Assembly: GCF_008831285.2 (NCBI RefSeq)
Contig: NC_045143.1
Coordinates: 22,262,302-22,326,301, forward strand
Source: Nymphaea colorata
Taxonomy: Eukaryota > Streptophyta > Magnoliopsida > Nymphaeales > Nymphaeaceae
Direction of reading: 5' to 3'
DNA length: 64,000 nt
Part shown: in pieces, positions 6,911 through 64,000 of the stretch
Layout of the letters: each line of letters opens with the position of its first letter
How positions within the stretch are numbered: position 1 is the stretch's first letter
Notes under the pieces: model-generated
The model's input: the letters and a program-made list of their open reading frames with translations, nothing else
Database searches by the model: none
Told to the model about the DNA's origin: nothing
Program-made: the position numbers and the translations under genes

Positions 6911-7080
6911 GCAGAATAAGATTATGTAGTCTCAGTATTGTTTTTGTATTATTTTGATCTTCTACTTGAGGAGGTAGAAGAATAAGATTATGTAGTTTCA
7001 ATATTATTTTTTGTATTACTTTGATCTTCTTCATGAGAAGGTAGCATAATAAGATTATGTTTTTTGAATATTTATTTATG
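6911..7080. repeat. About 67-bp tandem repeat, 2.5 copies
   Basis: The word gaataagattatgtag recurs starting near 6911, 6977 and 7044, each followed by a T-rich stretch and ttgatcttct. The third copy is partial and diverged. Confidence 0.75.
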
Positions 7081-7139
7081 TATTATTTTTATTACAGCTG
7101 CTTTCTTTTTAGGTTTTACAATGCTAGTGGAGTTGTGTT

Positions 7140-39893: not shown

Positions 39894-40022
39894 AACGACA
39901 ACTTGGTTATTGGCCACGGCATCGGACTTAGCAAATAACGACAACTTGGTTATTGGCCACGGCATCGGACTTAGCAAATAACGACAACTTGGTTATTGGC
40001 CACGGCATCGGACTTGGCAAAT
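39894..40022. repeat. 43-bp tandem triplication
   Basis: Three nearly identical 43-bp units start with aacgacaacttggttattgg at 39894, 39937 and 39980; the last ends ttggcaaat where the others have ttagcaaat. They lie just inside a CACTA-like terminus. Confidence 0.95.
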
Positions 40023-40030
40023 AACTTTAT

Positions 40031-41960: not shown

Positions 41961-44203
41961 ATTGTAGGACCCTAGAAATAGGGAGAAATTGGAGAGACTT
42001 TCAAGTCTTTTTTTTCCAATAAAAGGGTTATTAACAGCCAAGGAGAGGCCTACATGGGCCTCAATTTTTTTTTTTTAAAAAAAAAGTTACGTGTAAATTT
42101 TAAAAAGTTTTACTTATCCTATTTAAAAATTTTAAAAATGATATTTTGGGTCATGTCAAAATTTAAAAACTTTAATTCGACCCCCCTCATAAAAAATTTA
42201 TGGCTCTATCTCTAGTTATTAACCTCTTGCTCACTAGAAAAGACATTTTCATTTTGTATTTTGATACCAGTAAACTGCCTTTTTAAAATATCGGTGGGGA
42301 ACCGTACATCCATCAATTGAAAAATGTTATGTTATGGATTGCTAACACCAACATAAACAAGAAAAAGCTTCTAAAATTGTTTTATTTAAATGAAGTGGCT
42401 GGTATGATAGAAACAAATCTCATATCGTACGATAAATGCAAGCAAGGCCCCTTATATTTATTATTATTGCAGTGTGGTTGATACATATGATGTCTGGATG
42501 GAGTATAGGCATAATGCTGGCAGTAAAAAGTTGGCTTGTAAGTAGTGGATCAAATTGACCACTGTTAACTGCTTATACTCTTCAAGGAATGTCCGTAAAC
42601 ATAATCGATTCAGGAGCCGGATCGGTGAGGCTGCCGAATCCATGCAATTCGAACTATTTTGCTGAATCGGTTGGAAATCAGCTCAACGATATATAATGAA
42701 AAAATTGCTTTGTGCAAAAAGGAAATGAAAAATTTTAAAAAAGAAAAAAGAAAATTTCGAAAAGTATATGTATAAAAGCAACGTGTGGCACTCTTGAATC
42801 GAATCAGGTATTACATTAAAAGTGGATGGTGGTGTATATGTCTCTGATCTGTTGACATCTCTAATCATCTGAATTCTCATAAAAAATATGTGACCATCCA
42901 AAAAAGTGGACAGGGTTAAAGAATATATCCGATACAAATATGATCTGTTGACATCTCTAATCAACCGAGTGGCCAATTTGCAAATATTTCGCCCCACTTC
43001 AAAGCCCGCATCAAGATTATTGCTCTTGACAGCACCTTTCGAAAATAAAAACGATTTAGACTTTGGAAATTGGAGAGGAGATTACATGACGTCCAACTCA
43101 GTGTGAAAATGACACATCCGAATTTTACCATGACAAAGGAGATGTATAAGGCCTTTTAGGGTGTGTGAAACCTTTCAAAGTCAGGTGGGAGGCAGAACAT
43201 CGTTTTTGCCTTGAAAATGGGCTTTAAAGAATGTTTGAGTGAGAGTCAAATCGGGTTAACCCTTGTTTTAATCGAACAGAAGACACCAGGAACGTTCTGC
43301 CCCAGGTTTTAGAAGGGAGTTAAATGTTTTTGGAAAATACCCTGAAAGGAAAATATTTTTGTGAAAATTAGATTTATGAAAAAAAAATATTTTTTTTAAG
43401 AAAAATAGATTGTGTGTTTGAATGATGCATCCAAAATGCCATTTTTTGTTAACAATATGGAAGGTGTCAGGTTATTGAATCTCTTTTAAAAACGAAGCTT
43501 TAAAATCGGATTTTTCTCAAACCTAGCTTTGACATCACCCAAACGGGCAAAAAAAAACACCATTTTAACTGTTTACAAACCATGGGCGAAGAGACGTGGG
43601 GGAGACTGCTGTTATTTTCAGTGATTGGATGTAGGTGAACTTAAATTCAGTTAGTCCCATGAGACCTGAGTCACCGCCTTAGTTAAAACTAATTAAAAGT
43701 TTGTTCATAAAAAAAAAAAGAAAAAAGCTCTGCCATTAATACAAACGCTAGGTAAAAGTTTTCACATAACTTTGTTTTTGCTAAACCATATAGAATGCCA
43801 TCCAAACACAACTTTTTTTTTTTTAAAAGGTTCGATTAATGAATTTATTTCGGATTGGATTCTTTCTTATTAGAGTCCAAATCATTTAGGTCCCAAAGTT
43901 TTGGATCTAGCCACAACCTTTTCTCCCCTCTTCTCAAAATTAGTTGGATGAAATAAGGAGAGATCTTAAACCTGAAATCTTCCCTGCTCAAAGTTAGTTT
44001 GACAAGATAACGGAAATATCTGAAGCCTGAAAAGAAGGAATTAAGAAAGTTAGCTTCTTGGACTGGTAACTTCTTGCGTAATGGAAACCAAATATGACAA
44101 TGACAATGTCTCCTTCTGTCACGTATCTAACGCTCAGTGGAAGGATAGGCAATGGAAGAGATACGAGAGAAAAGGGAGATTTTCATTTAATTTTACTCTC
44201 TTC

Positions 44204-44228
44204 CTCTCTCTCTCTCTCTCTCTCTCCC
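44204..44228. repeat. (CT)n tract in HMGR proximal promoter
   Basis: A pyrimidine tract of about 25 bp lies just upstream of the G-box and about 85 bp upstream of the TATA box. CT/GA tracts are common near plant core promoters and can bind GAGA-binding BBR/BPC proteins. Regulatory use here is inferred from position only. Confidence 0.75.
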
Positions 44229-44243
44229 GCTCGTGTCACCTGC

Positions 44244-44249
44244 CACGTG
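44244..44249. promoter_or_regulatory. G-box (CACGTG) upstream of HMGR
   Basis: A perfect CACGTG palindrome, in the context tgcCACGTGca, lies about 65 bp upstream of the TATA box. G-boxes bind plant bZIP and bHLH (including PIF-type) factors. Its position in the proximal promoter makes it a plausible light- or stress-responsive site, but that role is inferred. Confidence 0.5.
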
Positions 44250-44312
44250 CAGAGACAACTCCGCGCTGCACGACGAACGTGTGGTCCCCAGATCGTTGCG
44301 CTCTGCCCGCGT

Positions 44313-44319
44313 TATAAAT
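44313..44319 (+). promoter_or_regulatory. TATA box of HMGR
   Basis: TATAAAT lies 140 bp upstream of the HMGR start codon. Plant transcription usually starts about 30 bp downstream of the TATA box, which would put the start near 44345 and give a CT-rich leader of about 115 nt. No upstream ATG is present in that leader. Confidence 0.7.
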
Positions 44320-44373
44320 CCAACGTTTCCTCTCCCAAGCGCCTCCTCACAGAAAGCCACCCGGATCCATCTC

Positions 44374-44395
44374 ACCGGAAAATATATTTTCCGGT
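44374..44395 (+). promoter_or_regulatory. Perfect 22-bp palindrome in the HMGR leader
   Basis: A perfect inverted repeat (arms ACCGGAAAATA / TATTTTCCGGT) lies 64 nt upstream of the start codon and about 30 nt after the expected transcription start. In RNA it could form a short hairpin near the cap; in DNA it could be a dimeric protein site. The symmetry is exact; the function is unknown. Confidence 0.6.
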
Positions 44396-44458
44396 AGAGA
44401 AGCCGGCTGCAACCCCTCTTTCTCAATTTCTTTTTCCTCTCTCTATCTCGGTCGCGGG

Positions 44459-47400
44459 ATGGAGATCCGGCGAAGGGTGTCGGCGAAACAGCCGGAAGGC
44501 AAGGGCTTCGCCACCGCGACCACCAACCAGGTGGGAGGGAAGGGGAAGACGCGGGTGGCAGTCGCCTCCGACGCGCTTCCCCTCCCAGCCAATGTGACCA
44601 ACAAGTTCTTTCTCGTCCTCTTCTTCCTCTCCTCATACTACCTGATGCGGCGGTGGCGCGAGAAGATCCGGACCAATACCCTCCTTCACCTAGTCACCTT
44701 CTGGGAGATTGTGGGCATCATTTCCTTCCTCTCGTCATTCATCTATCTCTTTGGCTTTTTCGGCATCATTTACGTTCAGCCCTTCGTCTCCAAGTCGTCG
44801 GAAGAATGGGACGACCTTGAGCCGGAGGAGACGTGCTCCAAGGCTGCACCTGCGCGCTGCGCCGCCGCGCCTCCGCCCCCTGCCCAGCCTGCCGACCTCG
44901 CCGGTGACCCCGACGAGGAGGTCATCATGGGGGTCGTGAAAGGCACCGTCCCGTCTTATTCCCTGGAGTCGAGGCTCGGGGACTGCAAGCGCGCGGCCGG
45001 AGTGCGGCGGAAGGCTCTGGAGATCGTCTCCGGAAGGTCGGTCGAAGGGTTGCCGCTCGAAGGGTTTGATTACGGGTCGATTTTAGGGCAATGCTGCGAA
45101 CTACCGATTGGGTATGTGCAGATCCCCGTGGGGATCGCCGGGCCCTTGCTGATGAAGGGGATGGGGGAGGTGTATGTGCCGATGGCAACCACCGAGGGAT
45201 GCTTGGTCGCAAGCACCAACAGGGGCTGCAAGGCAATCTATGCATCCGGCGGGGTTGACGTGGTGTGCCTGAGGGATGGAATGAGCCGGGCACCGGCGGT
45301 GAGGCTGCCGTCTGCAAGGCGCGCAGCGGAGCTCAAGTTCTTCCTTGAAAATCCGATGAATTTTGAGACCGTCGCGATGGTTTTCAATCGGTACGTTCCT
45401 CGCCTAATCCATTTGCTGTTTGGGTTTTCTGAGTCGTTTCCTCTCGACATTTTCTGCCCCAGAACAGTTTCATAACGAATTTTGGAAATGGAGAATCCTT
45501 TTCTTCCAATAAGTGTTTTTCTGCCTAGAATAATTTCACAATGAAATCTGCAAAAGAAGAAGGATTTCTTTTTTCTCCAAATTTTTTGGCTTTTGCGTGT
45601 TTTTTCTCTTTTTGTTATTCTTTCTCCTTGTAGTTGTCCTACTGAAGAGTTTGTTTCTCCAATTGGATTCCTAAGGTCGTTTTTATTTTTTCTCCTTTTT
45701 CTTGTGTTGACTGCGAGTTTTCCAAAATTGGTCCTCTTCAACCTTCTTTTGGCAAAGGCTCTTGTGTAACTAATGGTAGACATTTCAACGCTTGACTGAC
45801 TGCATGTACACTGTTCTGCTGTTGACGTCTTGTGAGGTTTTCTCACCGTTGTATTATGTATTTGGCTTCTGTTTTTGTGACTTTCTCGAGTTTCATCTTC
45901 CCGTTCATTCTATGAGATATTGCTAAAAAAAATATGCGACCTTAATTAGTTTTCCACTGTTGGGCAATTGCAGGACAAGTCGCTTTGCGAGGCTGCGGAG
46001 TGTCAAGTGCGCCTTGTCTGGGAGGATCCTTTACATGAGATTCATCTGTGCAACGGGAGATGCCATGGGCATGAACATGGTTTCTAAGGGAGTCCAGAAC
46101 GTGCTTGAGTTCCTTAACAACGATTTCCCTGACATGGAGGTGATCAGCATCTCAGGTTGGTCCATCGTTAACCTCTGTTTGTTTCTCCATGTGTTCTTCA
46201 TTTTGGTGTAAGCTCTGTTGGATGGGGAGACACATTGGTTGGCCTGTGAAGCAGTCAGTTTCAGAAGCAGCCTTGCTGTTATATCAACTGAACATATCCC
46301 ACTTGCTTTTCCTCTATTTTCGTTTTCACAAAAGAGATTTTCCCCCTCAAAACCGAAAAAGGAAGAAATGAAAGACTTTTGCTTTCTTGAACATCACTTC
46401 TTGGAATTTTTCTCCGCAAAATTGTGGTTGTGGAAGAGCTTTTCTGGCCTTTCCTATATTTTCTTCTTAAGCTGTCACTTCCAGGCAAGTTCATCGTCGG
46501 CCCGTGTACTCCTATTCTTCTTTTCTTCCATCTTTTTCCTGAAAACTACCCACATCTCTTTTACTCCATGTACCTGTCAGCAATATTAGTTGTGTGTGAA
46601 AAAACCTCGTGTTGTGAAATTTTACAGGGAATTACTGCTCTGACAAGAAGCCAGCTGCAGTCAACTGGATCGAGGGGCGTGGGAAGTCGGTCGTCTGCGA
46701 TGCGATCATAAAGGAAGAGGTGGTGAAATCGGTGCTGAAAACGTCAGTGCCTGCGCTGGTGGAGCTAAACACGAGAAAGAATTTGGTTGGCTCGGCGATG
46801 GCTGGTGCCATGGGTGGGTTCAACGCCCATGCCAGCAACATAGTAACTGCCGTCTTCATCGCCACTGGTCAAGACCCAGCGCAGAACGTCGAGAGCTCAC
46901 AGTGCATCACCATGATGGAAGTTGCTGATAATGGAAAGGACCTCTACATCTCCGTCTCCATGCCCTGCATTGAGGTAAATCCGCAATTGCCTTTTCTTTG
47001 GTTCCTTCAGGTTTCGTGGTGGTAGAATCTTTCTGAATGCTTCTGGTGCGATTCTTTGGCTGCTTTGCTGTTCCTGTATATTTTAGACTTCAGTTTCGTT
47101 TGTTGATATAATTCTGTGGGTCGCTTCAACCTTTACAGCCACTAGTTTTCACGTGTATGTTACTAAGTAATTGTCTTCATGTTGACTGTTGTTCATGCCA
47201 CCCTTAGAATACCTAGAGCTCCGTGTCCCTCGGTTAAAGTTTGTCTTTATCTAACAGGATGTGCCCATCTCTTTTGTAGCAGCAAGTTTTGAAAAGAAAA
47301 GATGTGCATCGCTCACTCGCCCTAGTTGCTCGAAAACTAAAAGAAAATTTTCATCTTTGTTTGAGTAATATATGTATCATCGGCACTGCTGAGCTACTTT

Positions 47401-47855
47401 TGTCAAGTTGTTTCCTATAGTGACAAAAACTTGGCTCGAACAACAGGCCCTGACAAGCTTTGTCCTGTTGTCTGTCTTCCATCTTGACATTTTCCACGGA
47501 GATCGTGCAACTGGTTTCTTATTTATCTGATTTATTTCAATTCACCAGCTGAAGAATATGCTTATTAATATAAACATTTTCGTGTTCTCTTTTCTATTGG
47601 CGTTAACAGGTGGGTACGGTTGGTGGTGGTACCCAGTTGGCTTCACAATCTGCGTGCTTGAACCTTCTTGGAATTAAGGGCGCTAATATGGAGTCACCAG
47701 GGGCCAATGCCACCAAGCTAGCTCTCGTAGTTGCTGGCGCAGTTCTAGCAGGAGAGCTCTCTCTCATGTCTGCTCTTGCAGCTGGCCAGCTCGTGAAAAG
47801 CCACATGAAGTACAACAGGTCGAGCAAGGACATCAAGTCGGCGGCTACATCATGA
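44459..47855 (+). CDS. HMGR: 3-hydroxy-3-methylglutaryl-CoA reductase (HMGR), four exons
   Basis: Reduces HMG-CoA to mevalonate with two NADPH, the committed step of the cytosolic isoprenoid pathway; plant HMGRs sit in the ER membrane with the catalytic domain in the cytosol. Exons 44459-45390, 45974-46155, 46628-46974 and 47610-47855 join in frame (intron phases 2, 1, 0; all GT-AG) to 568 residues, normal for plants. The N-terminus starts MEIRRR, the arginine motif of plant HMGRs. Two membrane segments lie near residues 46-66 and 83-108, then an acidic, Ala/Pro-rich linker to about 155. Catalytic motifs seen: [21 protein letters not shown] (E246), [16 protein letters not shown] (K378), GQDPAQN (D454), GTVGGGT, and [12 protein letters not shown] (H552). 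S558, with M at -5 and I at +4, fits the known SnRK1 phosphorylation site. The start has G at -3 and +4. Exon 1 is GC-rich inside AT-rich DNA. No frameshift or stop is seen; it looks functional. The paralogue number cannot be assigned. Confidence 0.97.
45391..45973 (+). other. HMGR intron 1
   Basis: This 583-bp GT-AG intron splits an Arg codon (phase 2): the exon ends CG and the next exon begins G. It is T-rich, as plant introns are. An open frame on the opposite strand across the exon 1/intron 1 boundary is a by-product of composition, not a gene. Confidence 0.93.
46156..46627 (+). other. HMGR intron 2
   Basis: This 472-bp phase-1 GT-AG intron interrupts the Gly codon before NYCSDKK, the catalytic-lysine motif. 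The acceptor is a T-rich stretch ending in ttttacag. No embedded gene or repeat is seen. Confidence 0.93.
46975..47609 (+). other. HMGR intron 3
   Basis: This 635-bp phase-0 GT-AG intron falls between the codons of I-E and V-G-T-V-G-G, just before the NADPH-binding GTVGGGT motif. Nothing else is recognised inside it. Confidence 0.93.
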
Positions 47856-48240
47856 AATCCGGGAGGAAGAGCAGACGCCAACCACTTCAAGAAGGAAGGA
47901 GTAAGAAGACGAAAAGCATAAAAGACGGAAAAGCAAAAAGGGTCGCCGGGAAGAGGAACAGTCTATAGCCATCTTCCTTGCGACCGTTTAGAATACTTGT
48001 TCACCTTGTGTATGTACTTAATTTGGCAATGTCCTGCTCCTCTTTCACCTTGTAACAGTAAATCGGAGTCGGTTTCTTTTTGTTATTCCCGTGGGAATCT
48101 CTGTATGATGGGGACGGCAGCGCTTGATGTAATGGACACCCCCCTCCTGGGGATGCTTCTGTGGCTGCTCCTAGTTTGACTGGTGATTCCCTTTACTGTA
48201 TTTGTTTCCTTGTGATGGCCGTGTTTGCTGTATTTGTTTT
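47856..48240 (+). other. Probable HMGR 3' untranslated region
   Basis: The sequence after the TGA stop is purine-rich at first (to about 47970) and then T-rich, as plant 3' ends are. No perfect AATAAA is visible. TTGTAA near 48050 and a TGTAAT element near 48130 are possible polyadenylation elements. The end is a guess. Confidence 0.4.
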
Positions 48241-49081
48241 ACTATCTAGAAGTTTACTTTGAAGTCTTGCGGTCCTCTTCTGCGTTTATCAGCATCTTGC
48301 TGTTGGTCTCCTGTGCATTTATCATTTTGTCTACCTACAGGGAAGATATTTGTTGGGAACTTCAAATGGCATTGAATGTTTTGTTGATCTCTAAGCAACT
48401 TCAACGAGAACTCAGGTCAAGTTGCAGTACAACCTAAGCATTCTTCCATTTGTTTACGGAGGATAACTTAGAAAAGGGATCGTGGTGCAAGTTTATCGAT
48501 GGAATGAAGGTTTTAATACGCGACAAATAAGTCCTAGGACTAGTGGACGCTTGTGTACTTGGTCTGAGAGAAAGAAAAAAAAAGTTCCTGATTCAATGTA
48601 CGATTTTTTATAACAAGTAAACGATAGTCCGATGGCATGTTCTTTTTCTTTTCCCCGCTAACTGCACTATTAAAAGGGGAAAAACCATTCACTGAATAAA
48701 GGTTTCGTCCGAGAGTATCAGCCGCAAGGGAGTGTCGAACTTCTAATATCCATTTTCCCATTTTTATTGCTACATTGTCGATAAAGCAGTTAATTTTGCT
48801 GTTCTTATTTGGAAAAGTTATTTCTCTCATAAAGAACTAATCTTTTATAGAGACTGTAACTATATTAAGAGAATACAGATATTAAAAAGAGTGTGTTTGG
48901 ATGACATCCACAAAGTTTTGTGTATTTAGGTGATGGTCTAAACTGGAAACCCAATTTTGACAAATGGCAGTTTTGACCAAATGACCCTTCTGAAAAGTTA
49001 TTCATACAAAAATGTAATTTTGGTGTTTGACCACCAAAACACACAACCGAGGAGATGCAACACTAGATTGGAGTGTTAGCT
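48241..49081. other. Intergenic sequence between HMGR and the duplicated block
   Basis: No gene. It contains one small MITE candidate (48891-49044); otherwise AT-rich sequence. Confidence 0.35.
48891..49044. mobile_element. Small MITE candidate (154 bp)
   Basis: The left end GTGTGTTTGG and right end CCAAAACACAC are inverted repeats with one extra base; the inside is AT-rich and non-coding. Target-site duplication is not clear. Confidence 0.4.
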
Positions 49082-49282
49082 GATGCAGCCCTGAATCCTA
49101 AAAGCAAGGGCTCCTTGCAGACTCCCAACTTGACCTTAGCTCGGTTTGTAGAGCAAAACAAAATCAGGTTTTAAAATAGTTAAGAAATTAAAGTTGGCTG
49201 TTACATGTTCAAGTTTTCATACAGCATTTTTTTTATATCAACAGAAGTATTCATCCATCTTCACCGGTCATTATTAGCAGAC

Positions 49283-49284
<2 letters not shown>

Positions 49285-49344
<60 letters not shown>
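49285..49344. repeat. (TA)n(GA)n compound microsatellite
   Basis: About 44 bp TA then about 16 bp GA, followed by an A-rich purine stretch. Confidence 0.97.
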
Positions 49345-49461
49345 AAAGAAAAAAAAAAGAAAAAAAGAAAAAGGGAGGAGGTCATATCCTTAATCCTGCT
49401 CAATTACAACCGCTAGATACAATGTGATTAACCACATTGCTTGTGAGAGATTGGAGACCTT

Positions 49462-49463
<2 letters not shown>

Positions 49464-49492
<29 letters not shown>
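49464..49492. repeat. (TA)n microsatellite
   Basis: A perfect TA run of about 28 bp in unit A; unit B has short TA runs at 54728-54768 in the corresponding area. Confidence 0.95.
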
Positions 49493-49496
<4 letters not shown>

Positions 49497-50112
49497 TTAT
49501 ATATAATCATGCAGCATATTAGTGCTCCTTACGTCAAACAACGTGGCATGCCATGCATGGACTTACGTGCGTCACGTTCAATAAAATTCCTCATAACACT
49601 CCGGTCCGTCCTGGGCGTCTGTTGGGTCGTCATCATCGTCGAAATGATAATTATGGTGGTGGGTGTGACTAGCCGCCTTTGAACGTGTCTTTTTTGGAGA
49701 CCTGCACTGTCGCTAACTGGTTTCGACGTTGTTTACTGAATCCAAAGCGTCGGGAAAAACGCAACCACAAGTATTGATCGCATTGTCAATTGACAGAGAC
49801 TTCTGCAACGTACCTTTTTCTCCGTCGTTAACTGGTCGACTTTTTCAGGGGAAATTTACCCTCGATTTAATTATTTACCGCCGTAAAATTCTCGGTAGGG
49901 AAAAGTCGTACATTTTTTTTCTTTTTTCACCCGCTCCACACTATTTCCCCTCGCAATCAAACATGGCCTTATATTAAAATTGTTTGTGGATCGAATTTGG
50001 CAGAGTCCGCCGCATCAGGATCCCAATTGCTTGCGAACTGAATCAAGTAAAAAATTTATACATTTAAATAGTCCTCATCAATTTTCATCTTTCTAAAATT
50101 ATTACTAGTACC

Positions 50113-50136
50113 ATTATTATTATTATTATTATTATT
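50113..50136. repeat. (ATT)n microsatellite
   Basis: Eight ATT units in unit A; the matching place in unit B (55090-55120) is T-rich without the expansion. Confidence 0.9.
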
Positions 50137-50658
50137 TATTTTTTGTCCTTACCGTCTCTCTTTTTTTCTGAAGTTTAGGGCAAGAACATCACCACTCAAG
50201 TGCTTAGACAACTATAATGAAAGACACTCAAGTGCTTAGACAACTATAAAGAAAGATCCACCGCACTTTTAATTTTGAAAAAAAATGCGTACTGTGATTG
50301 TTAATTGGGATGATAAGAAAGAGTATTTCATCTTTCCATCCTAAGAGCCAAAGCCCTCATCCTTCAATCAATTGAAGCAACATACCTTACATGCTTCATA
50401 ATTTACTTAAACCATATCATATGGAGGCTTCAAGTTTTTAATTAGGAAACAAGTTGGTTGGTTAATGTCTTAAATCTTTGGAGAACATTACGTACATTAA
50501 AAAAATAAAAAGATCTTATTCAGGTTGTCTTGGATAACACCTTCAGAAAACTCCATCTTTTAAACATCAAATTTGGTGACAAGTCTGTTTTTGACAAGTA
50601 CTTTTCGATGAACCCATGGGCCGTAGCATAACTGATTGGTTTGGCAGGCTGATGAGAG

Positions 50659-51282
50659 CTCAGTCGTCAATTTTATTTTTGTACGCACTACTCTTCTAGA
50701 CCTGCAAACAAATGCAATGTCATACTCCGGTTAATAGGTATACTACAGATCCACCAACACTCCTCAGTCGTCAATTTTATTTTTGTAGGCACTACTCTTT
50801 TAGACCTGCAAACAAATGCAATGTCATACTCCGGTTAATAGGTATACTACAGATCTACCAACACTCCTCAGTCGTCAATTTTATTTTTGTAGGCACTACT
50901 CTTCTAGACCTGCAAACAAATGCAATGTCATACTCCGGTTAATATGTATACTACAGATCCACCAACACTCCTTGGTCGTCAATTTTATTTTTGTAGGCAC
51001 TACTCTTTTAGACCTGCAAACAAATGCAATGTCATACTCCGGTTAATAGGTATACTACAGATCCACCAACATTCCTCAGTCGTCAATTTTATTTTTGTAG
51101 GCACTACTCTTCTAGACCTGCAAACAAATGCAATGCCATACTCCGGTTAATAGGTATACTACAGATCCACCAACACTCCTCAGTCGTCAATTTTATTTTT
51201 GTAGGCACTACTCTTATAGACCCGCAAACAAATGCAATGCCATACTCTGGTTAATAGGTATGCTATAGATCCACCAACACTC
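50659..51282. repeat. Six-copy 104-bp tandem array
   Basis: Units start ctcagtcgtcaattttattt (or ctTGgtcgtc) at 50659, 50763, 50867, 50971, 51075 and 51179. They contain gacctgcaaacaaatgcaatg and cggttaataggtatactaca. The word before gacc alternates tctag / tttag / tctag / tttag / tctag / tatag, hinting at a 208-bp dimer unit. 104 is not a multiple of 3, so open frames across copies are not coding. Unit B has only one diverged counterpart at about 55660-55770. Confidence 0.97.
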
Positions 51283-52031
51283 CAAAGCAGCCTTGTCTAA
51301 GGATGCAGAAGGAAGGAAGAAGGGTTTCAACCATCTTTGGGCAGCTTCCACTCTGGTGAGAATACAAAAATTATGACATTTTCTATGAATTATATATAAC
51401 ATGAGGCAGCCAGGTTATTCACTTTTAAAAACGTTATTTCCTCAAAGCAAAGGTTCTTAAAAACCCACTTTTGACCATCATCAAGCACAACTTTAAGTAC
51501 TTTTGGTTACATGGTTCACTTTTCTATTTTATTTTGACTTGAATTCAAAAAGAAAAAAAATAAGCCTCAACTGCATTCAAGAAAAAGATTGCCCGTTTGC
51601 AAAACTGTCTTGTTATAAGAAGAGAACGGTTAAATTTACCAATCCATGATATTAAGGTAGATTACTCATTGTTAAATGTCTCTTTGACAGCTCCATATCT
51701 CAAATCCAAGGATGATATGAAATCTCTTTTATATGGGACTCATATAGTAAGCAAAAACAAGGTCTCAACGTTTTTTAAAAATGAGAATTTGAAATACGTA
51801 GTATGTGAGGCAGAGGAGTGTGTATGTTTCTTAAGTCCTTGTTCTTGAGATCCTCGTGGTTTCATTTTCATTAATACATTGTGCTCTCTAATCACCTTAG
51901 ATCTTATACCCAAATTAATTAAGTAAAATCTTGCTTAGCAAAGGTTTGCCAAATTCGAATTAATTAAGTAAAATTTCACTTAGCAAAGGTTGCCAAAAGA
52001 TAAAGCCCGAATTGCGTAAAAGTATGCAATC

Positions 52032-52437
52032 TTTCAACTAGAGATGGCACACAAGCCAAGTTGATCTCGAGTTGGGCAGTTTGAGCTCTACTCAACTCAC
52101 ATAACTCAAGCTTGAACTCAAGTCGAGCTCGATAGAAAAAGTTTGAGCTCAACTCTTCTAACCTGTTCATGTTAAGCATGTGATATGCCTGATTTCTTTT
52201 AACTCGATTAAGTCATTTTAACTTGATTAACTCATTTAGTTGTTACTTGCTTAACTATTTTCTTATTATAATTCAACATTCATTATGTAGTCGAGTCGAG
52301 CCAAGTTTAAACAAATCAAGTTGTTACAACTCGAACTCGACTCGTTTATAAACAAGTTGTGCTCAAGTCAAGCTTTGATGAGTGAGTTCTAGTCAAGCTC
52401 AAGCTGGCCGGACTCGTTATGCAGCCTCAATTTCAAC
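52032..52437. mobile_element. hAT-like non-autonomous element with target-site duplication
   Basis: A 392-bp insert (52039-52430) is flanked by TTTCAAC on both sides (52032-52038, 52431-52437). Unit B carries the empty site with one TTTCAAC near 56172. The insert starts TAGAGATGGC, a hAT-type end, and its right end reversed is TGAGGCTGCA, an imperfect match. Inside are repeated gagctcgactcg-like words. No coding capacity. Confidence 0.75.
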
Positions 52438-52794
52438 AAGTCATATAAAGCATAGCCCTTTTCTCCCATAAATTGCAATAAATTACACCCACTGACTACT
52501 GCCCACCTAACTCATAAGCACGAGAAGACAGCTGCCATGTGCTCACAAAGTATATATAATTGAAACGTAACCTTCAGTCAAATAGTAAAGCTAAATTTTT
52601 GATTAAAAATTGAATACTTGTGTGAGCCACTCCCTAGTGCGATATACATGTTCATCTTCAGGGGCTAAGTTGAGCGCATCTCTCGGTTATGTATTACTTG
52701 AAAGGCTTTATGAAAGATGCAAGTGTAATTCCAACAATAGTTGGTGTGGTATTAGCCCCAAGCTAGCTTCATGGTAAATGTGCATTATATTTGA

Positions 52795-52980
52795 AGGGGC
52801 GGAGCCAGTAATTGTTCACTAAAGAGGCCAAATTATAGTTTCAAAATTTTTAACAGAATTTTTCAAAATTTTTATGTAAACTAATTGAAAATTTTTAAAC
52901 AATACGTATAAAAAATTTGTTTCTGAAATTTTAAGGGGGGCACAACCCCCCTGCCAACTCACCCCCTTGGCTTTGCCCCT
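52795..52980. mobile_element. MITE with AGGGGCGGAGCCAG termini
   Basis: The left end AGGGGCGGAGCCAG (52795-52808) and right end TTGGCTTTGCCCCT (ending 52980) are inverted repeats; the interior is aaatttttaa-rich with a ggggggcacaacccccc foldback. Decayed relatives of the same interior appear near 42060-42220, 59505-59680, 61738-61945, 62945-63095 and from 63885. It is absent from unit B. Confidence 0.65.
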
Positions 52981-53039
52981 GAGGATGAAACCCTGCCATC
53001 TAATGAGAAGTTGAAGCCTTCCCTCTTTTCTTCTACTCT

Positions 53040-53215
53040 TGAGGTCCAATGCTATATCGGGACCTGCGTAAACTTACTTACGGTTACTACTTCAACCTGA
53101 GAGTAACACCTGCCACCTTTTGCAATTCAGAAAAGCAACGTCATAAGAGTCGAACTGACGACCAGAATTTTCTCACCAGCCTGCCAACCCGACCATTTAA
53201 GCTATGACCCTTGGA
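53040..53215 (-). repeat. tRNA-derived SINE, copy in unit A
   Basis: On the minus strand TAGCTTAAATG (53204-53194) fits Pol III box A exactly and GTTCGACTC (53155-53147) fits box B exactly, followed by about 110 bp of body. The same element, diverged, is in unit B at 56590-56765. Confidence 0.65.
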
Positions 53216-54727
53216 ACATCAATAGCAAATTTAAAAAAGTTGAATACCTCGGATCTGGTTACTACCAGCTCTCATTACGTTGCCTGCCTGAGTTTTTAAT
53301 TTCATGGATTACTTCATCTAAGTGCTGATCACCTACAATTTGTAAAGCAAACATACTAAATTAATTCATTAAACGAAGCTCAGTTTTTTGTTTTCGGAGC
53401 TGGAATGTAATTTTTTCTGTGAGTATGAACGTCGATGGTCTTGATTTGGATTGGGTCCATCTTTTACTGCTGTATTTGTTGACGTAGTCATATTTCATGT
53501 AATTGGAATAGATCCAAACTCAGATCTAGTTGGATTGCTAATCTGTCACTAATTTGTATATTATCCAATAAGTAACTAACCTGTTTTCATTCGGCCGATC
53601 GATTCATGCTGCCAGCTTTTATAATGTTGTATATAGCCAGGTCGTAACTTTATTGGATCTAACTTGGAAATGAAACTTCGTATTCAGAATCAGTTAAAAA
53701 AACTCATACCAATTCTAAAACTAAGAAATTCAATCCAGATCTTCCAGCTAAATGGCTGTGATCATAGATATTGTTTTAATTTTGTGGTAATGTTCATCCA
53801 AGTGCAAGGTGGAATCCCAAAAGGTGCTTTAACTGTTTCAAGCATCTCTCAACTTTCTATCTGGAAAGCCTTTTTTGGTATTACAAAGCTCATAATTATT
53901 GAGAGCAAAGATGCACTTTAAATTTTCTTTCAAGTAAACAGCTAAAATAAATAAACATTTGTTGGATACATATTTAGCTAGAGTTCATCTTTTATGATTG
54001 TTGGGTGAATAGGAAAAATATTTAATGCTACTAACCAACAAAAGAACCAAAACCCCCACCACTCATCTTGCATTATGATTGTTGGATACACTGCTTTCGG
54101 TGCCTTAAATTGATTCTCAATTATGTGCCTCAACTTGCATATTGGTACCTTCATACCGTCTTCATGCTAGCTCCCACTCCGTCGATTGTGTCGAACCCCT
54201 TCGATATCTTGTATATTGATTGTTGAGGAGTTGTTTGATAACAAGACTGTGCTGCTCCACTCGATTGCCTAGATCTCTTTGCTATTGAAATGCCCTTACT
54301 TACATGACAAATTTCTTCATTTAGTTTACTGCAGTAAATACTTAATAGCATCTTCTTTTGATCCTAAACAACAAAACATTTTACAGGCCGTTTGAATCTT
54401 ACTGCAGTAAATAGTTCTTAACCTCTTTAGTGGCTTGGGCTGGTGGCTGCTAGACAGTAACAGTCATGGATCCGAGTGATAGTCGACACAGCCTTTGGGT
54501 CCAGCGCCCTGAATCAAAGAGACAGCCCTGAATCCCCAAAGGCAAGGTAAAAAAACGCTTGCCCCCTTGCAATATACAAACTGACCGAAGCGGGGGAACA
54601 CCAACACACAAATCAGGTTCTGAAAAGGATTAAGAAAATTGACTGTTATGAAACCAAGCTTTCATACAATTTTTTTTTTAAGGTAAACAAAGTAATTTAT
54701 ATATTCGTACCCTTAATATTAGCTGAG

Positions 54728-54768
54728 ATATATATATATCAAAAAAAATATATATATATATATATATT
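54728..54768. repeat. Two short (TA)n runs separated by poly-A
   Basis: TA runs at 54728-54739 and 54748-54768 with an A8 between them. Confidence 0.9.
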
Positions 54769-56318
54769 GAAGGAAGAGCCAGATCTGCGGCCGGCCCCCT
54801 TGGTTCGGACTGTCGCTGACTGGTTTTGACGCTATTTACTGAATTCAAAGCGTCGAGAAAGACGCAGCCCCACGTATTGGCCTGATCGCATGGTCATTGA
54901 CAGAGACGTCTCCGTGCTCTCCCCTTTCTCCGTCGCCAACTCCCTATCGCTCCAGTCAATGATTTTACAATTGTTTGTGCGTCGAATTTGGCAAAGAGTC
55001 CGCCGGATCGGGATCCGAATTATTTGCGAACCGAATCATGTAAAAATTTGTATTTTTAAATAGTCCTTCAGGAATTTTCATCTTTCTCAAATTATTTCTA
55101 TTATTTTTTATTAGTGTCTTTTACTTTTTTGTCCTTTCACGTGATCTCCTTGTTTCAATTTTGCCATTTCAAGCATCACAGTCGTGCAGGAACATATCAT
55201 CACTCAAGTGGTTGGATATCTATAAAGAAAGAAAGGCCCATCATACCTTTATTTTTGAAATAAAAGACAAGCTGTAATTATTTTTCTTAATAGGTACAAC
55301 GAGTATTTCTTCTTACCACTAACTCAGAATCGAAGCTCCCACTTTGCAAAATTGTTTGATTGAAACTCTAATAAGTCCATGTTCAAAAACTCAACAAGCA
55401 AAATAGCACGCATATTTCATCATTTAATAAAAAAAATATCATATGGAGGCTTGAAGATTTTTTATTTTTTATTATAATTAGGAAACAAATTGGTTGGTCA
55501 ATGTCTTAAATCTTGGAGAACATGACTTACAATAAAAAATTAGAAGATCTTATTAAGATTGTCTTGGTTGACACTTTCAAAAAACTGCATTATGTTAAGA
55601 TCAAATTTTGGTGACAACTTTGTTTTTAAAACATGACCACGAGTTGATTGGACTGATGGGTGGGTGGGAGCTGGGTGGTCTTCAATTTGATCTATGTGGG
55701 TATTAGGTGGTACTCTTCTTCTAGGATGATGAAGAAGTGTGTGACTCTGTAGTTGATAGGTATCATTCTATGTGGGCAAGAGAAAGAGAAGAGTTTTGGC
55801 CTTTTTCAAGCAGGTTTCTGCTCACCCCCAAAAACATGATTTCTATATATGGGTGAGAATACAAAAATGACATTTTTTATGAATTATATATAACATGAGA
55901 CAGCCAGGTTAGTATGTGAATCATATATATAATGACGTTTTTCAAAAATGAGAATTTGAAATAAGTAGTATGTGAGGCAGAAGAGAGAGTGTGTCTGTTT
56001 CTTTTAAGTCCTTGGACTTGAAGATCCTCGTGATCTCATTTTCATGTCATACTTAGTGCTCTATAATCACCTTGGATCTCATACCCAAATTAATTAAGTA
56101 AAATGTCGCTTAGCAAAGGTTGCCAAAAGATAAAAGCCCCCAGTGCGGCAAAGTGTGTGACAAGTGCTATCTTTCAACAAGCACAGCCCTTTTTTCCCAT
56201 AAATTGCAATAAATTACACCCACTGCCCACCTAAGTCTTTACGTTGCCGACATTGCCAACCAATAAATATAGGGAGCCAATGCTGCCATGTGCTTGTATA
56301 GAATTGAAACTTAAATCA

Positions 56319-56482
56319 AATAATAAAGCTAACTTTTTAACTAAAATTTTAAAACTTCTTTGAGACACTCCCCAGTGTGATAATTACATAGGTTCTTTGA
56401 AATAATAAAGCTAACTTTTTAATTAAAATTTTAAAACTTCTTTGAGACACTCCCCTGTGTGATAGATACATAGGTTCTTTTT
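56319..56482. repeat. 82-bp tandem duplication in unit B
   Basis: Two nearly identical copies start aataataaagctaacttttt at 56319 and 56401 and differ at few positions (cccagtgtgataa / ccctgtgtgatag). Unit A has one copy (about 52580-52650), so the duplication is younger than the segmental event. Confidence 0.9.
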
Positions 56483-56589
56483 CAAGTGGTTAAATTGAGT
56501 GTCTCTCCCCCTTATATATTCCTTGAAAGGCTTTATGAAGGATGCAATTGTAATTCCAACTATAGTTCTTATATTGTATATTAACGTGA

Positions 56590-56765
56590 ACGCCGAGGTC
56601 TAGAGTTACATCGGGACTTGAGTGAATTATGGTTGCTACTTTCATCTCATGGGTAGCACCTGCTGCCTTTTATTTTTGAGAGAAGTAGCACCAAACAGAA
56701 TCGAACTGATGACCAAACTTTCATCAGTCTGCCAACACGCACAGCTACGCTATGTCCCTTAGAAA
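56590..56765 (-). repeat. tRNA-derived SINE, copy in unit B
   Basis: On the minus strand TAGCGTAGCTG (56752-56742) fits box A and GTTCGATTC (56706-56698) fits box B. It occupies the same place in the duplicated unit as the SINE at 53040-53215, so the SINE was there before the duplication. Confidence 0.65.
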
Positions 56766-57339
56766 AAATGTACGTTAGATCAATAGCAAATTTACAAAAT
56801 TTGAAGCCATTATGTTGGCTGCCTGAGTTCTTAATTTCATGGTAATTTTTATCTAAGTTCATCGTGGTTAGGCTTATCACCTCCAATTTGAAAAGCAAAC
56901 ACACTAAATGTATTAAAGAAAGCTCAGTATTTTTTATCTGAGCTGGAATCTAATTTTTCTTCTGTGAGTATGAATGTCAAGGTTTTGGATTTGGGTTGGG
57001 TCCTTCTTTTACTACATTCGACTTAGTTATATTTCACGTAATTGGAATATATCCAAACTCAAATCTAGAAAACGAATCTGTCACTAATTTGTATGCGATC
57101 CAATAAGTCACTATCTTTTTTTGAATCACCCGATCGATTCAATCTGCCAACTTTTATAATGTTGTATCTATCGATCTATCTATCTGGTATTAATATGTAA
57201 CCAGGTCGTAACTTTATCGGATCTAAGTTGCAAATCAAACTCGTATTCAGAATTGGTTAAAAAGTGCATGCCGATTCTAAAACTAAGAAATTAAGCCCAG
57301 ATCTTCGGGCTAAACGGCTCCGATCATAGATATATAAAC

Positions 57340-58255
57340 AGGTATGTAGATCCAACAGTTTCTCATTCCTAACCCTCCGTCCGTGCATCCTTTTTGGTAA
57401 GCTTCCAAGCATAGTCACCAAAAATGGTTTTTTCAAAAAAAAACATGTTAAAATTGTGGAAAATAACTAAGCCGAAAAAATGGCAAAAAACGCAAAGAAA
57501 AGTGTGTGCTTTTTCTTTCTTTTTTTTTTCTCATTTCATTTATGTGTTTTTTCATACTTTTCTAACGTTAAACTGCTTATTTCTATTTTTTTTTACTTTT
57601 TATTTGTTGATTATCTACTTATTTTTTGATATTGCCTTATTAGTTTCCCATTTAAATTTTCGCATAAGTTTTAAGACTTTTTAAAAAAATTTTACTGTTT
57701 TATTTCCTGTTTTTATCTAAACGAAATCCGTAGTTGTAACTATGCGTCCAAATTAAGCTCCCCACTTATGGTTGGAATAAAAAAAAGTACTTTTAACAAT
57801 GGGACCCAGAAAATGACATGACAAGATCAGATTACCTCCTCAATAGCAGAAAATCCTCTGTTTTGACGTCTCGTATAATCTATTCTTCTGAAATTTCCAG
57901 ATTCAGTTTGTAGGAATTCGGTGAACAGATGCATGCTAGCGAACAAAGGAAAAAACGACACTGATACCAAATGAAGATCCATTAATGATCCGAACCGCTT
58001 CTGACCCCACCGTACTGCATATAAACGCCAGATATGCTAGTCCAATTCTCATTCCGTTTCAAGAAAAATGATGTCTGAACCTGAGTTGGAACCCAAAGCA
58101 GATTTAAGAGAATCCAATACAATTTCACTGGTCGTTTTATATAATGATATATTATTTGCTAAAGAAGACAAACACTTGGTTGAATGTTTAGTTTATTGTG
58201 ATTGAAGTATTTGACCAAGCTCTTATCATTTGTCCAATCTTTTTTTAAGTTTAAG
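57340..58255. other. Unit-B-specific sequence, no gene
   Basis: AT-rich with a very T-rich part at 57505-57700; no counterpart in unit A and no recognised element ends. Confidence 0.35.
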
Positions 58256-60716
58256 TTTGCTTTTGGTCTTTAGGGGTGACATCTCTACTGTACTTCAACT
58301 TGAATATCGGTACTCCATTTGTTTAACAACACATGAAATTGATACTCCAAAAACTCAAAACAGAAATTGACAGCCAATCATCCTTTACTCCGTCTATGGT
58401 GCCAACTCCCTTGGAAATATTTTATATGGTGATTGTCCTTCTATAACAAGTTTGCATTGTGCCAATTAGAAGTGGAGCAAAAAAAATTCTGTCTATGAAA
58501 CACTAAATGTATAGGAACCAAATTTTCAATCGACATTGGGGCGGAGACCCAGGTCGTTTAGGATTGATTCATATAGTTGAACCAAAATTTACCTTTGATC
58601 CGATCATTAAAAGCAAGGTTTTAGGGTGGGCTTCTGGGTCTACCTCCCTCCCTCCCTGCTGCCGAAAGTGATTTTAGATCATTTAGATTCTTTGTTACTG
58701 AAATACCCTTTCTTTGCTTCACTAGCGGTCCACAAACCCATCACTAATTTAGTCAAATACTTGATAGCTTCTTCTTTTGAGCCCGTTTGACTCTTATTGC
58801 AGTAGCCTTCCAAATAATTATTCTTCGTCGAAACCAAATGGAGGAGAACCTCCAAGTGCCTCCTGTTGTCAGAGTCCCCGTTCCTGCGGTTTGTACAAGG
58901 CATAGGATAATTAAATATAGAAAAGCTATAGCCAAACACCTCCAAATTCATATAATATTAGGTTCGAGTGTCATGTGAATCAGCAGCCTTAACATTTAAG
59001 ACAAATTAATAGAGCAATAACACAAACTATAGCCAAACACCCCCTTAAGTTAATCTTAGTGGCCAAAATTCTTTTCTCCACCCTTGAACAAGCTGAAACT
59101 AATATATATATATATATATACGTTTTGCTTTACTAAATCATGCACGTTGTAGAACTGTTGACCTTATTCAAGTTCAATATCTTAAGACCAACACTATGTT
59201 CAAGTGACTGGAGCTGTTGTGATCAGCATACATATCCACAAACAACTCTTCCACAAAAATACACAAATTAGAAGCAGTGGCGAGCCACATGGTGGCCCAC
59301 ACCAGCCTCATAAAATATGTTTGTTTTTATATTAATGCTATTGTGTGCCATTAAAACAATTGAAGTTAGCGATTTCTGGCGCTTACACGTGGTACATGCA
59401 TCGATATTGCAGCCGCCATCTGCTACCATTTATTGCGCATAATTAAGCTCATGATATACAAGTTACTAATAAACATCAATTAACCATTTTTGGTATAGAT
59501 ACCAAGGGCGAAACAAAAATTTTTTCATATAAAGTTTCTAAATTTTGTTTGGATTCAAAATATCATTCTTCAAATTTTTTTTATATGTTTTTCTAAATTT
59601 CATATGTAATTTTTAAAAAAAAAAACAGTTTGAGGTGAAACTGAGCCTATGTGGGCCCTTCCTTGACTCTGTTCCTAAGTATAAGTACAACCACTGCAAC
59701 CAAGACCCATTTGAATTGATGGAACCAAAGTTTAAATTTGGAAAAGTTTTACAATGAATGAAACAAACACAGAACTAAACACCCGAGGGCCGAGAGTTTT
59801 CATACAGATACGGAACTTTAACTTTATTCCTAAGCAAATTTTATTGACCGTTGAAAGTTTCGTGCCCAAACAAACAAACATGATATTAAAAATACCTGGA
59901 ATAAAAATGATAAAACAAAAAAGTAGGCATACCAGGTATTGAGAAATGACCTCGCCCGCTGTGAAAGAGTTCAAGAAACAGACGTCGTTCTCACAGTCTC
60001 AGTTCTGGGCCCATCCTTGGAAAGGGTAGGCCGGCTGCCTACTAAGAGGAATTAAGTTTGGCCATATCTGATTCCTACGGCCTTTAATGGCTGGTCCGAC
60101 TCCCGAGGCTGCCGTCCTAACTACGTGCACTGCAGTGCTTGGGAAAAAGACGGTGCCTCGACTCCCAACCACCACCTGCTCTGCCCTTCCCCAATTATCA
60201 GATATGATGCTTAAAATTCGTAATTAATGTTCAGATACCATGATCGTTTGTACAGCGATTTCAATTGATAGCTGATGAAAGCGTTCCCTTTCAAAAGGTC
60301 ATTGATCGATGGGTCAAGATGAAGGGTTTTTTCAACTAGTAATGGACGACGCGCTTTGGTTTTACCTTATATATATATATATATTGATTGGTAGAAATTA
60401 GGTCAACAAAAAAACACCAGAACTTCACATATGATATTTAAAGTGTTTTTTTATTTAACTTTACCAATATAATCTTAAGGATAAGTTCATACAAAATATA
60501 TAATAAGTTGATCAATTTTTTTGGTAAAAATAAGCAAAACTTCATGGCTTCCATGACATCATTTTTTTTTAAAAACAACTTCATTCAAAAAGCATGTTTT
60601 ATATCAAAATAGTTTTTATAAATATATCAAGATGTTCATATTTTATTCAAAATAACCTTTTAGCAAAAAATTGAAGACTCTTGCTTTTGTCCCTAAGTGT
60701 CTCATTTCTACCAACA

Positions 60717-60717
<1 letters not shown>

Positions 60718-60783
<66 letters not shown>
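60718..60783. repeat. (TA)n(GA)n compound microsatellite
   Basis: About 38 bp TA followed directly by about 28 bp GA. Confidence 0.97.
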
Positions 60784-60786
<3 letters not shown>

Positions 60787-62029
60787 CCAAATTTCTTACG
60801 ATTATAACATCGGCAATGACATTATGATGAGCAATTTATGTTCATGTTTTTTATAACTTCGAACTATATTGAATCAGTTGTATTTTAACATAAGTTTGAA
60901 CATTAGTTATGCATATATTTGTGTGGTTTATTAACGTTTAATTGTTTTGTTTGATACGTGAAAAGTGGTAAGTACGTAACTTGCATACATATTTTCGATT
61001 GTAGATTAAAAAAATTAAAACACTTTCATCTATGCATAAATTTGCATTGATAAAAACAATAGCTACATTTAGTAGACGCCGGTTAAAGCTTTCCCAACAT
61101 CTAGGTAATTATTGGTAAAAAATTTTGCCGACATCCAAAGAGCATTGTAGGAAAAAAGTTTTACCAACATTTGTTGAGATGTCAAAAAAAAACAAACTAT
61201 TAGCAATGCTCGTGTACGTCGGTAATAATTAATGTTTAGGTATGTGTTGAGCGCGTTGATGGTAATTAACTATCAAATAAGTGTCTACTTGCATTATTTC
61301 CCTCCAAGATTCCCTAAAATTTGAAACTGGTTACGATGCCTTTCTTTTCAGTTCAAAAGTAAAATTTGCCCTTTCCAGCTTCTAAGGGCAACGTTATAGA
61401 TCATTACGTTTTAGTAGAATGTCACTGACCCCCTTTTCCTTTGTTGCATCTAAGGATTCTGACATTGATGTTGAAATATATGTTAGTTAGTAAACTGGTT
61501 CTATCCCATTAGTACTTTGATTTTTTTTGTTTTTTTTAGGGGGTGGGGCGTGGGGGAGGGCCCATGATGTTCTATTCATAACAACTGGCCACCATTGACT
61601 TCAGCTGGTAAAGTTTATCTGCTTCTCTTGTCTGAGTTCCATAAATGATGAGTAATCTAGCTAAAACAAGTAGCTCATTTTCTTATTTAAGACAGCCCCT
61701 AATTGCAATTATATGTGAATATAAATGTGGTGCAAACAGGGGCGAAAGTAGAAAATTTTCATTGCAAGGAAAGAATTATAGTTTCAAATTTTAATAAGGA
61801 TCAAAACATAATTTCTTAAATTTTTTTTATACAGGTTAAACTAAAATTGTTAAATATAGCTATAAAATTTTGCATATTAAAAAATTAGGGAGAGGGAGGG
61901 TGCCATGTTTACAGATGGCCCCCATTGCCTCCACTCATGGGTGCAAGTAAAAAAGATTGGTTGTTCATTGCATGTTCCTTGTTGTCTTAGAGGCTGAATA
62001 ATTCTATATATACACCAGTGGTGGAGCTT

Positions 62030-62185
62030 AGGTAATGTAATGGATTGGACACGCCTTAGGTAAATTTCACCAGTGATTCGGTTTTACGTCTAACCATAGG
62101 TAATAGATTGACCACGCCTTAGGCAAATTTCACCGGTGACTCGGTTCTAGTCATAGGTAATAGATTGGACACGCCTTCTTCAAGA
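62030..62185. repeat. Tandem repeat of about 60-65 bp, 2.3 copies
   Basis: taggtaat-gattggacacgccttaggtaaatttcacc and its neighbours recur near 62030, 62098 and 62154; the third copy is partial. Confidence 0.75.
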
Positions 62186-62756
62186 GATAGCGACGATCGA
62201 TTGAATTCGTAGCTAAATGGTAAAGGAAGAATATAACAAAATGCTTGGGAAAAAGTTTTCCATTTTTCTAGACTTTTTTGGGGCTCGAGGTTCCGACCCG
62301 AGTACGTCGACGTCAGAAACGCAGCAGGGTCGGCACTGAGCGCCTCACGTGGTGCGAAGGACAAAGTCAAAAGCCCCTCTCCTCCCGCGTCCATGTGCTT
62401 GACAGCGGCTTCCCACATGCAAGTGCTTCTGCACCGGAACTTCTTCCTCTCAGATCGACAAAACAACACCACCCGCGTCCTCAATATTTAATGCTAATAT
62501 GTCAAGGGAAGTCGGACTTCAGCTGCGATGTATATCGTCCTCAATATTTAATGCATGTATACCGATACTCGGCATGTAAAAGAAAATTGGCAATGTCTAT
62601 GATTATTATTATTTTTTATTCTGTGTCACTAAAAAATATCATAAAAAAGTACATTTCATTGCTAAAGCCATCAAGTAACTGCCATCCCAAACATATTTTT
62701 TGAGACAGTTTTTAGCTACATAAAATAAAAAAACCGACCGACCAAAAAAATAGTTT

Positions 62757-62940
62757 GTTGATTTCAATGGAATGGCCAAATGGTTAAACATTTAAATGCC
62801 ATCGCTTAAAGTCTCTAGCCACAGAACACTAGAAACGTTTTATGATGTAGCAGAGACTGACTTGTGATGTTTTTTAGTGATGGCCTTTAAAGTGCCTGTA
62901 ATGAAGTGTTTCAAATATTTAGCAATCCGATGACATTACT
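62757..62940. repeat. Dispersed repeat related to 16865-17395
   Basis: Shares aatgg-taaacatttaa, tttatgatgt, gttttttagtgatggcctttaa and caaatatttagcaatc with the units at 16865-17030 and 17240-17395. Non-coding; class unknown. Confidence 0.35.
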
Positions 62941-63715
62941 ATCGATCGACCATCATTTTTTAAAATTTTTATATAAAACAAATGAAATTTTTGTTCAAAA
63001 TTTTTATATATAACAAATGAATTTCAAAATGCACTTTTTCTTTACAAAATTTTGACGTAGGAACAAAGGGCATGTGGGCCCTATATTGACACTAAAAAAA
63101 AAGGTGTCAGCATTTGTGAAACTTTTTATAAAGTAAATGGACATTTTAAACTTTTTCTACTTTTAAATTTTTTTTTAATTTTATTTTAATGGGATCATTT
63201 TGATCATTATACATCCCTATGCATCATTTTTTTGTGCACATGCATAACCATAACCAGCTTCCCTACCAACTCCGAACTCCGAAGGGCCGCTGATACGAGG
63301 TTACGTCTTCCTTCATTTTTCGAAAAATATAAAATTTCAATTACATGTCAAAATAAATAAAATTAATTTACAGGTTAAACTTTTCAAAAATTTCAAACTC
63401 GCTTAAAAGTTTTGAAAAACACAAACCGGTGGTCCATATTATCTATCGCCGGGTGAACCTGACCCACTTTCCGTATCTTTTGGTGAGCTGGTTGGGTCCT
63501 GCAATTGGATTCCTTGCAATCGAATAGTGTTGGGGAACCTGCAAACCCGGGGACCTCCATGTGGGAAGGAACAAATGTCCTGGACCGTGGCCCCCCATTG
63601 CCAGACAATATGGACCGTTCTATAAACTCGGGAGAACTAGGAAGGAGTTGTCAGTCCACATGCTAGCCATGTGGTGGGATCCCCACTTCTTCGAATCGAA
63701 AGCCCAGCACGCAGG

Positions 63716-63723
63716 TATATAAG
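63716..63723 (+). promoter_or_regulatory. TATA box near the right edge
   Basis: TATATAAG in a locally GC-balanced stretch, about 37 bp upstream of a GC-rich foldback. Its position relative to the foldback is what a small Pol II transcription unit would need. Confidence 0.4.
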
Positions 63724-63752
63724 CCAAGCGAGGTTTTCTGAGCACAGGCGTG

Positions 63753-63845
63753 GGTCTGCCTCCCCCTTGCTGCTTCTCTGGAACCCAGTCAGGCTGCCTA
63801 GCCCGTGAAGTTTAGCAAGACAGAGGGGGCCGCGGCCCGCAGACC
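63753..63845 (+). ncRNA. Candidate foldback transcript (possible pri-miRNA-like hairpin)
   Basis: Outer arms GGTCTGC (63753-63759) and GCAGACC (63839-63845) pair. Inside them CCCCC pairs with GGGGG, CTTGCT with AGCAAG and CTTC with GAAG, leaving a loop of about 25-30 nt. The arms are separated by bulges, notably a GC-rich one on the 3' side. I do not recognise a known plant miRNA in it. It may equally be the 5' part of an unknown transcript or chance pairing in GC-rich DNA. Confidence 0.3.
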
Positions 63846-63884
63846 AATCTCTTGCCCATGCTGTCGATCAGAGGACCACCAACA

Positions 63885-64000
63885 GTGGTAGAGCTAGAAA
63901 TTTTTGGCCGAGAGGTACTAATTAAAAAACAAAAACTGGATTCTTCTAATACATAATAAAATGATTGCCCTAAAAGAATATCATATATAATAAGTAAATG
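63885..64000. repeat. Decayed dispersed repeat at the window edge
   Basis: ggtagagctagaaatttttggccgag resembles the start of the MITE-like family at 52795 (gcggagccag..aaattttt). The window ends inside it. Confidence 0.35.

Follow-up and report, generated by a model that had tools for sequence, protein, structure and literature searches.

The closest described counterparts of the locus analyzed here are the SINE-derived satellites (sSats) of squamate reptiles, whose arrays have been reported to carry a longer terminal unit that continues to the end of the SINE, to show a dimeric pattern in some instances, and to be located preferentially in subtelomeric positions (PMC10702118). Minisatellites and satellites derived from Alu, B1 and SINE-like elements have also been tabulated, with entries from animals (PMC6947457). 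Here we describe a small array from Nymphaea colorata, located within a 64-kb stretch of DNA that was analyzed as a whole and is referred to below as the window. As in the squamate arrays described in PMC10702118, its tandem units come from part of a SINE, and the terminal unit reaches the SINE end; in addition, the alternation at one variable site (C T C T C A along the monomers) recalls the dimeric pattern of some sSats. Unlike those arrays, it is found in a plant, it is one array of six units, and an unamplified paralogue adjoins it. It also resembles the cases of PMC6947457 in being a tandem array born from a SINE, the starting state here surviving in a linked copy. The array looks like a small plant example of a kind that is already known, and we make no claim that it is the first plant report.

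The paralogue is available because the array lies in one of two tandem copies of an intergenic segment. Tandem segmental duplicates of intergenic DNA accumulate substitutions, indels and transposon insertions independently of each other as they decay, and the present pair, which likewise consists of two direct copies, does not differ from them in kind. The duplication is ordinary, and its value is that of an internal control: with either copy taken as the outgroup of its partner, a single assembly suffices to place losses, insertions and tandem expansions in order.

Results

A tandem duplication downstream of HMGR

HMGR, a sterol-pathway gene, is located on the plus strand at 44459-47855 (ATG 44459, TGA 47853-47855), as identified from its open reading frames and from PF00368 matches, with a layout of four exons as judged by eye. 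Both its protein and this layout suggest nuclear DNA of a plant. The first-pass annotation had proposed that HMGR is followed by two non-coding units in direct order, and its coordinates and lengths proved correct to within tens of bases, since the measured limits of homology are A 49086 and B 54523 on the left and approximately A 54409-54425 and B 58804-58825 on the right. Based on blastn and shared 12-mers, unit A was assigned to 49086-~54420 (+) and unit B to 54523-~58820 (+), each right edge being accurate to about 15 bp. The first A/B homology is encountered 1.2 kb after the HMGR stop codon.

Comparison of A and B by blastn yielded collinear plus-strand blocks, the best of which covered 792 columns (71%, E 2e-116). 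After removal of low-complexity words, the two units shared 170 12-mers on the plus strand and 4 on the minus strand, whereas dinucleotide shuffling of B (50 replicates) left a mean of 5.0 and a maximum of 15. A single collinear chain contained 162 of the 170, and the pattern is not one of scattered short matches only. A and B are direct, adjacent and collinear copies, and the data indicate that they most probably originated from a single tandem duplication of an intergenic segment lying about 1.2 kb downstream of HMGR.

We considered HMGR itself as part of the duplicated segment and set this aside, as a comparison of the gene and its 3' side (44000-49100) to 54400-64000 returned only a 24-bp match (E 0.5). 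Past B, no extension of the homology was seen. The two units are separated by a 97-bp spacer (54426-54522) that is like neither outer flank, 350/500 and 363/500 shuffles scoring equally high. We note that CCCTGAATC has a second occurrence approximately 20 bp upstream of the start of B (54500-54545).

Pfam scans of six stop-read-through frames covered 44001-58900 and 59001-64000. As a control, the frame method recovered PF00368 (HMGR) in three frames of 44001-49000, where the other weak match was to PF08367 (E 0.018, under its cut-off). No family was detected at E<=1 in 49001-58900, which led us to set aside hidden genes in A and B, nor at E<=0.1 in 59001-64000. Known RNA families were likewise set aside, as nothing in the whole window reaches the Rfam gathering score, and ARAGORN predicted no tRNA genes. 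A and B have decayed without recognisable coding content, and no finding demands a function for either unit.

Divergence and age of the two copies

The divergence of A and B was calculated from 12 hand-chosen homologous segments comprising 2,397 aligned sites, after AT microsatellites, one-sided segments, the array and a few short stretches (53251-53271 and 54224-54269, for example) had been left out. These chosen sites showed 181 transitions and 206 transversions, corresponding to a K2P distance of 0.182 (bootstrap 0.164-0.201). With plant rates of substitution per site and year set at 1.3e-8 and 7e-9, the duplication would be 7 and 13 Myr old, respectively, and slower assumed rates of 3e-9 and 1.5e-9 would place it at 30 and 61 Myr; we prefer none of these values.

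Divergence is heterogeneous among these 12 segments (p 0.007). The segment carrying the element termed SINE 2 below has diverged faster, with differences at 48/201 sites versus 339/2,196 elsewhere (Fisher p 0.003), and is richer in transitions (29 to 19, versus 152 to 187 elsewhere; p 0.046). Both excesses are consistent with the decay of methylated cytosines, which they do not prove. A central part appeared to evolve more slowly (374 sites at 90.1% versus 2,023 at 82.7%; nominal Fisher p 2e-4). However, we place no weight on it, because it was picked after inspection and, in a scan by stretches of 250 columns, 121/2,000 permutations were as high; a conserved functional core was set aside on the same grounds.

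Two SINE-like loci in each unit

The proposal that a SINE is common to both units and older than their duplication is supported for the tRNA-derived SINE-like element SINE 2, of which the A copy at 53041-53216 (-), used alone as a query, matches the B copy at 56595-56764 (-) with an E of 6e-17. An nhmmer profile built from both copies had one further window match at E<0.1, namely 50614-50700 on the plus strand (E 5.3e-9). The same site was found with a profile of other edges (E 5.7e-10), and the next-best match was 34916-34990 (E 0.56). We refer to this second locus as SINE 1. In A it spans 50612-50762 (+), its head (50612-50658) lying outside the array and its remainder being the first array monomer, and in B it is represented at 55637-55777 (+) by a single unamplified copy of the monomer. 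The relationship between the two loci was also detected with the A copy of SINE 2 alone as query (50616-50732, E 1.7e-5), and the A copy of SINE 1 in turn recovered both SINE 2 copies (E 5e-6 and 9e-6). In pairwise comparisons, 50590-50790 scored 70 against the A copy of SINE 2 and 52 against the B copy, with shuffle means of about 21 (20.5 for the A copy) and 0/500 shuffles as high in each case. The B copy of SINE 1 is barely alike to SINE 2 when compared directly (103/500 and 29/500 shuffles as good).

Each unit thus carries two SINE-like loci in opposite orientation, and their collinearity shows that both predate the duplication. The head of the B copy of SINE 2 (56686-56759) aligned to the full tRNA model (RF00005 positions 1-71) with 16.0 bits and an E of 0.74, the gathering score being 29, and one unrelated Rfam family scored higher on this stretch (17.6 bits, E 0.22). 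The A copy did not match the tRNA model at E<=10. A and B boxes were seen by eye in the head, and inspection of the flanks gave no clear target-site duplication or 3' tail. The weak tRNA fit, together with the existence of two related copies, makes SINE a likely label for this family, although not a proved one, because the fit is below the gathering score and is missing in the A copy.

A 104-bp array that starts within SINE 1

A six-copy array of a 104-bp monomer was identified by TRF at 50659-51283 (+) in A. The first-pass annotation had listed it among the elements present only in A. It is not an insertion specific to A: B keeps one copy of the monomer, and the edge of the array falls inside SINE 1. 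Indeed, the left edge at 50659 lies within the SINE 2 profile match (50614-50700), which places it in SINE 1 and leaves the SINE head outside the array. The profile match reaches 42 bp into the array, and the match of the A copy of SINE 2 alone reaches 74 bp into it.

The extent to which the monomer is SINE sequence was evaluated by shuffling. When sequence from 50688 on was shuffled, 2/1000 shuffles fitted the A copy of SINE 2 as well and 415/1000 the B copy; from 50701 on, the corresponding values were 16/1000 and 759/1000, and for monomer bases 20-104 alone 60/1000 and 401/1000. A SINE origin is therefore well supported by these alignments over the leftmost 42-74 bp of the monomer. For the rest, and thus for the whole monomer, it is only suggested, because the likeness is weak after 50688/50701. 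This bears on an alternative in which the tandem duplication is real and the array is unrelated to the SINE, SINE 1 consisting of the head only and the monomer being unique sequence of the segment. The fading of the likeness to SINE 2 beyond 50701 speaks in its favor, but the profile match and the SINE 2 query both run into the array over the stretches given above, and we consider this alternative unlikely, if still the strongest of those considered.

Evidence for the single copy in B comes from position together with similarity. Between the flanks that A provides, the B middle scored 164.5 with one monomer, as compared to 124 with none and 130 with two, and 164.5 was attained by 0/1000 shuffled monomers, 1/1000 shuffled B middles and 1/1043 other 104-mers. 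The B copy of SINE 1 as query found A 50631-50742 with an E of 0.0055, though the A copy found the B copy only with an E of 0.99. Two results speak against the single copy: an unanchored local comparison of the monomer to B was weak (6/1000 shuffles were as good and several of 1,328 other window segments scored higher), and the B copy shows the slight direct likeness to SINE 2 given above.

Pairwise differences among the monomers average 4.4% (range 2-9%), whereas monomer and B copy differ at 15/74 aligned sites, which makes the present array younger than the duplication. It is possible that an older array has since contracted in B. Taking the present array as younger, the position of its left edge in SINE 1 and the one copy in B imply that, once the duplication had taken place, a portion of a SINE was multiplied sixfold in A. 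Five of the six monomers start and end with CTC, which suggests slippage or exchange between these short repeats.

Insertions, duplications and other segments confined to one unit

A hAT-like element had been proposed as specific to A and younger than the duplication, and both points hold. The element (52039-52429, +; 391 bp) is flanked in A by an 8-bp target-site duplication (52031-52038 and 52430-52437), with CTTTCAAC on the left and ATTTCAAC on the right (7/8 bp identical). In B, the empty site at 56171-56178 (+) is a single CTTTCAAC, directly after which the right-hand flank begins. The target-site duplication in A and the empty site in B establish that the insertion postdates the duplication. 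When 200,000 pairs of positions separated by 200-600 bp were drawn at random from the window, a fraction of 0.00096 had flanks matching at 7/8 bases or more, a value that is raised somewhat by the choice of the element edges by eye. Pfam detected no coding domain in the 391 bp. Assignment to the hAT superfamily is tentative because the ends, compared by eye, match poorly as terminal inverted repeats.

The 82-bp tandem duplication previously attributed to B alone was recovered by TRF at 56318-56481 (+); its copies differ from each other at 5/82 sites and each differs from A at 13/76, and A has a single version. Conversely, a 45-bp tandem duplication (51913-52002, +; TRF) is present in A only, its copies differing at 4/42 aligned sites, and is single in B. 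A 188-bp element found only in A, with imperfect inverted ends (52795-52982), is without a clean empty site in B, and may represent an insertion in A or a loss from B; a weak second copy with GGGGCGGAGCC-like ends was observed at 61739-61931 (E 0.002).

Another A-only segment, 314 bp long (51418-51731), has a TTA trinucleotide on either side; insertion in A and deletion in B would account for it equally well. Either of these two segments may be what the first-pass annotation called a MITE. Inverted arms at 51419-51784 resembled MITE ends, but we make no claim for them, because the right arm is also present in B and 39 inverted pairs occur in the surrounding 1.8 kb.

Both units also carry tails that do not align. 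The A tail (53777-54123) has no B counterpart, its best match to the B tail being 11 bp (E 0.56), and the B tail (57338-58288) has neither an A counterpart nor another copy in the window, and no terminal repeats were found in it. Part of the A tail (53824-54106) has a diverged match at 24430-24724 (nhmmer E 8e-7; blastn gave fragments only, best E 0.045), and is possibly a dispersed repeat that inserted in A.

Discussion

We hold it to be quite probable that the locus reflects one tandem duplication, two prior SINEs and later events specific to A or to B, among them the amplification of SINE 1 in A. In this account, SINE 1 and SINE 2 inserted first, and duplication of the segment then generated A and B. 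In A, the hAT-like insertion, the 45-bp duplication and the array followed, the last by amplification to six copies of a 104-bp stretch that begins 46 bp into SINE 1, probably through slippage, or else through unequal exchange, between the CTC trinucleotides at the unit ends. In B, duplication affected an 82-bp stretch. Judging from the divergence of their copies (9.5% for the 45-bp duplication, 6% for the 82-bp duplication, 4.4% for the array), the 45-bp duplication is the oldest and precedes the other two, but we do not insist on this order, as the counts are low and arrays undergo homogenisation.

This history retains most of the interpretation given in the first-pass annotation, namely the duplication, the older shared SINE, the younger hAT-like element and the 82-bp duplication of B, but replaces its reading of the array. 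The second SINE, the 45-bp duplication of A and the tails that do not align were absent from that account.

Two other explanations concern the duplication itself. A and B could be neighboring insertions of one large dispersed element, such as a non-autonomous transposon with two SINEs. We regard this as improbable: the sequences that border either unit have no 6-mer in common, Pfam shows no transposon coding domain in 49001-58900, and no further unit was found in the 64-kb window (none at E<=1e-3, matches elsewhere being simple repeats and short matches only). That alleles or homeologous segments were set in tandem by the assembly is very improbable, given that A and B diverge by 16%, far above the usual allelic difference, with many insertions, and that the window has no second HMGR.

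Retaining the tandem duplication, the most instructive feature is the array whose seed, at least partly SINE, remains single in the other copy, and a plant case with its starting state preserved is a small addition to the arrays already described. It is conceivable, but we would put it forward only tentatively, that the locus captures a satellite at an early step of its birth from a SINE of a plant, the linked paralogue preserving the starting state. If this were true, and if the same SINE family had seeded other arrays in the genome, satellites of SINE origin would exist in plants much as they do in squamate reptiles.

Other observations were made elsewhere in the window. Between 26001 and 32000, the GC skew is strong and ranges from +0.22 to +0.29 (2-kb steps), values elsewhere being mostly near zero. 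A dispersed repeat pair in opposite orientation is formed by 59501-59659 and 42176-42045 (-), with an nhmmer E of 3e-5. Lastly, short tandem duplication seems to be frequent along this stretch, as TRF identified tandem duplications of two to three copies with units of 43-243 bp at 6051-6260, 6887-7089, 10480-10745, 28881-29366 and 39894-40025.
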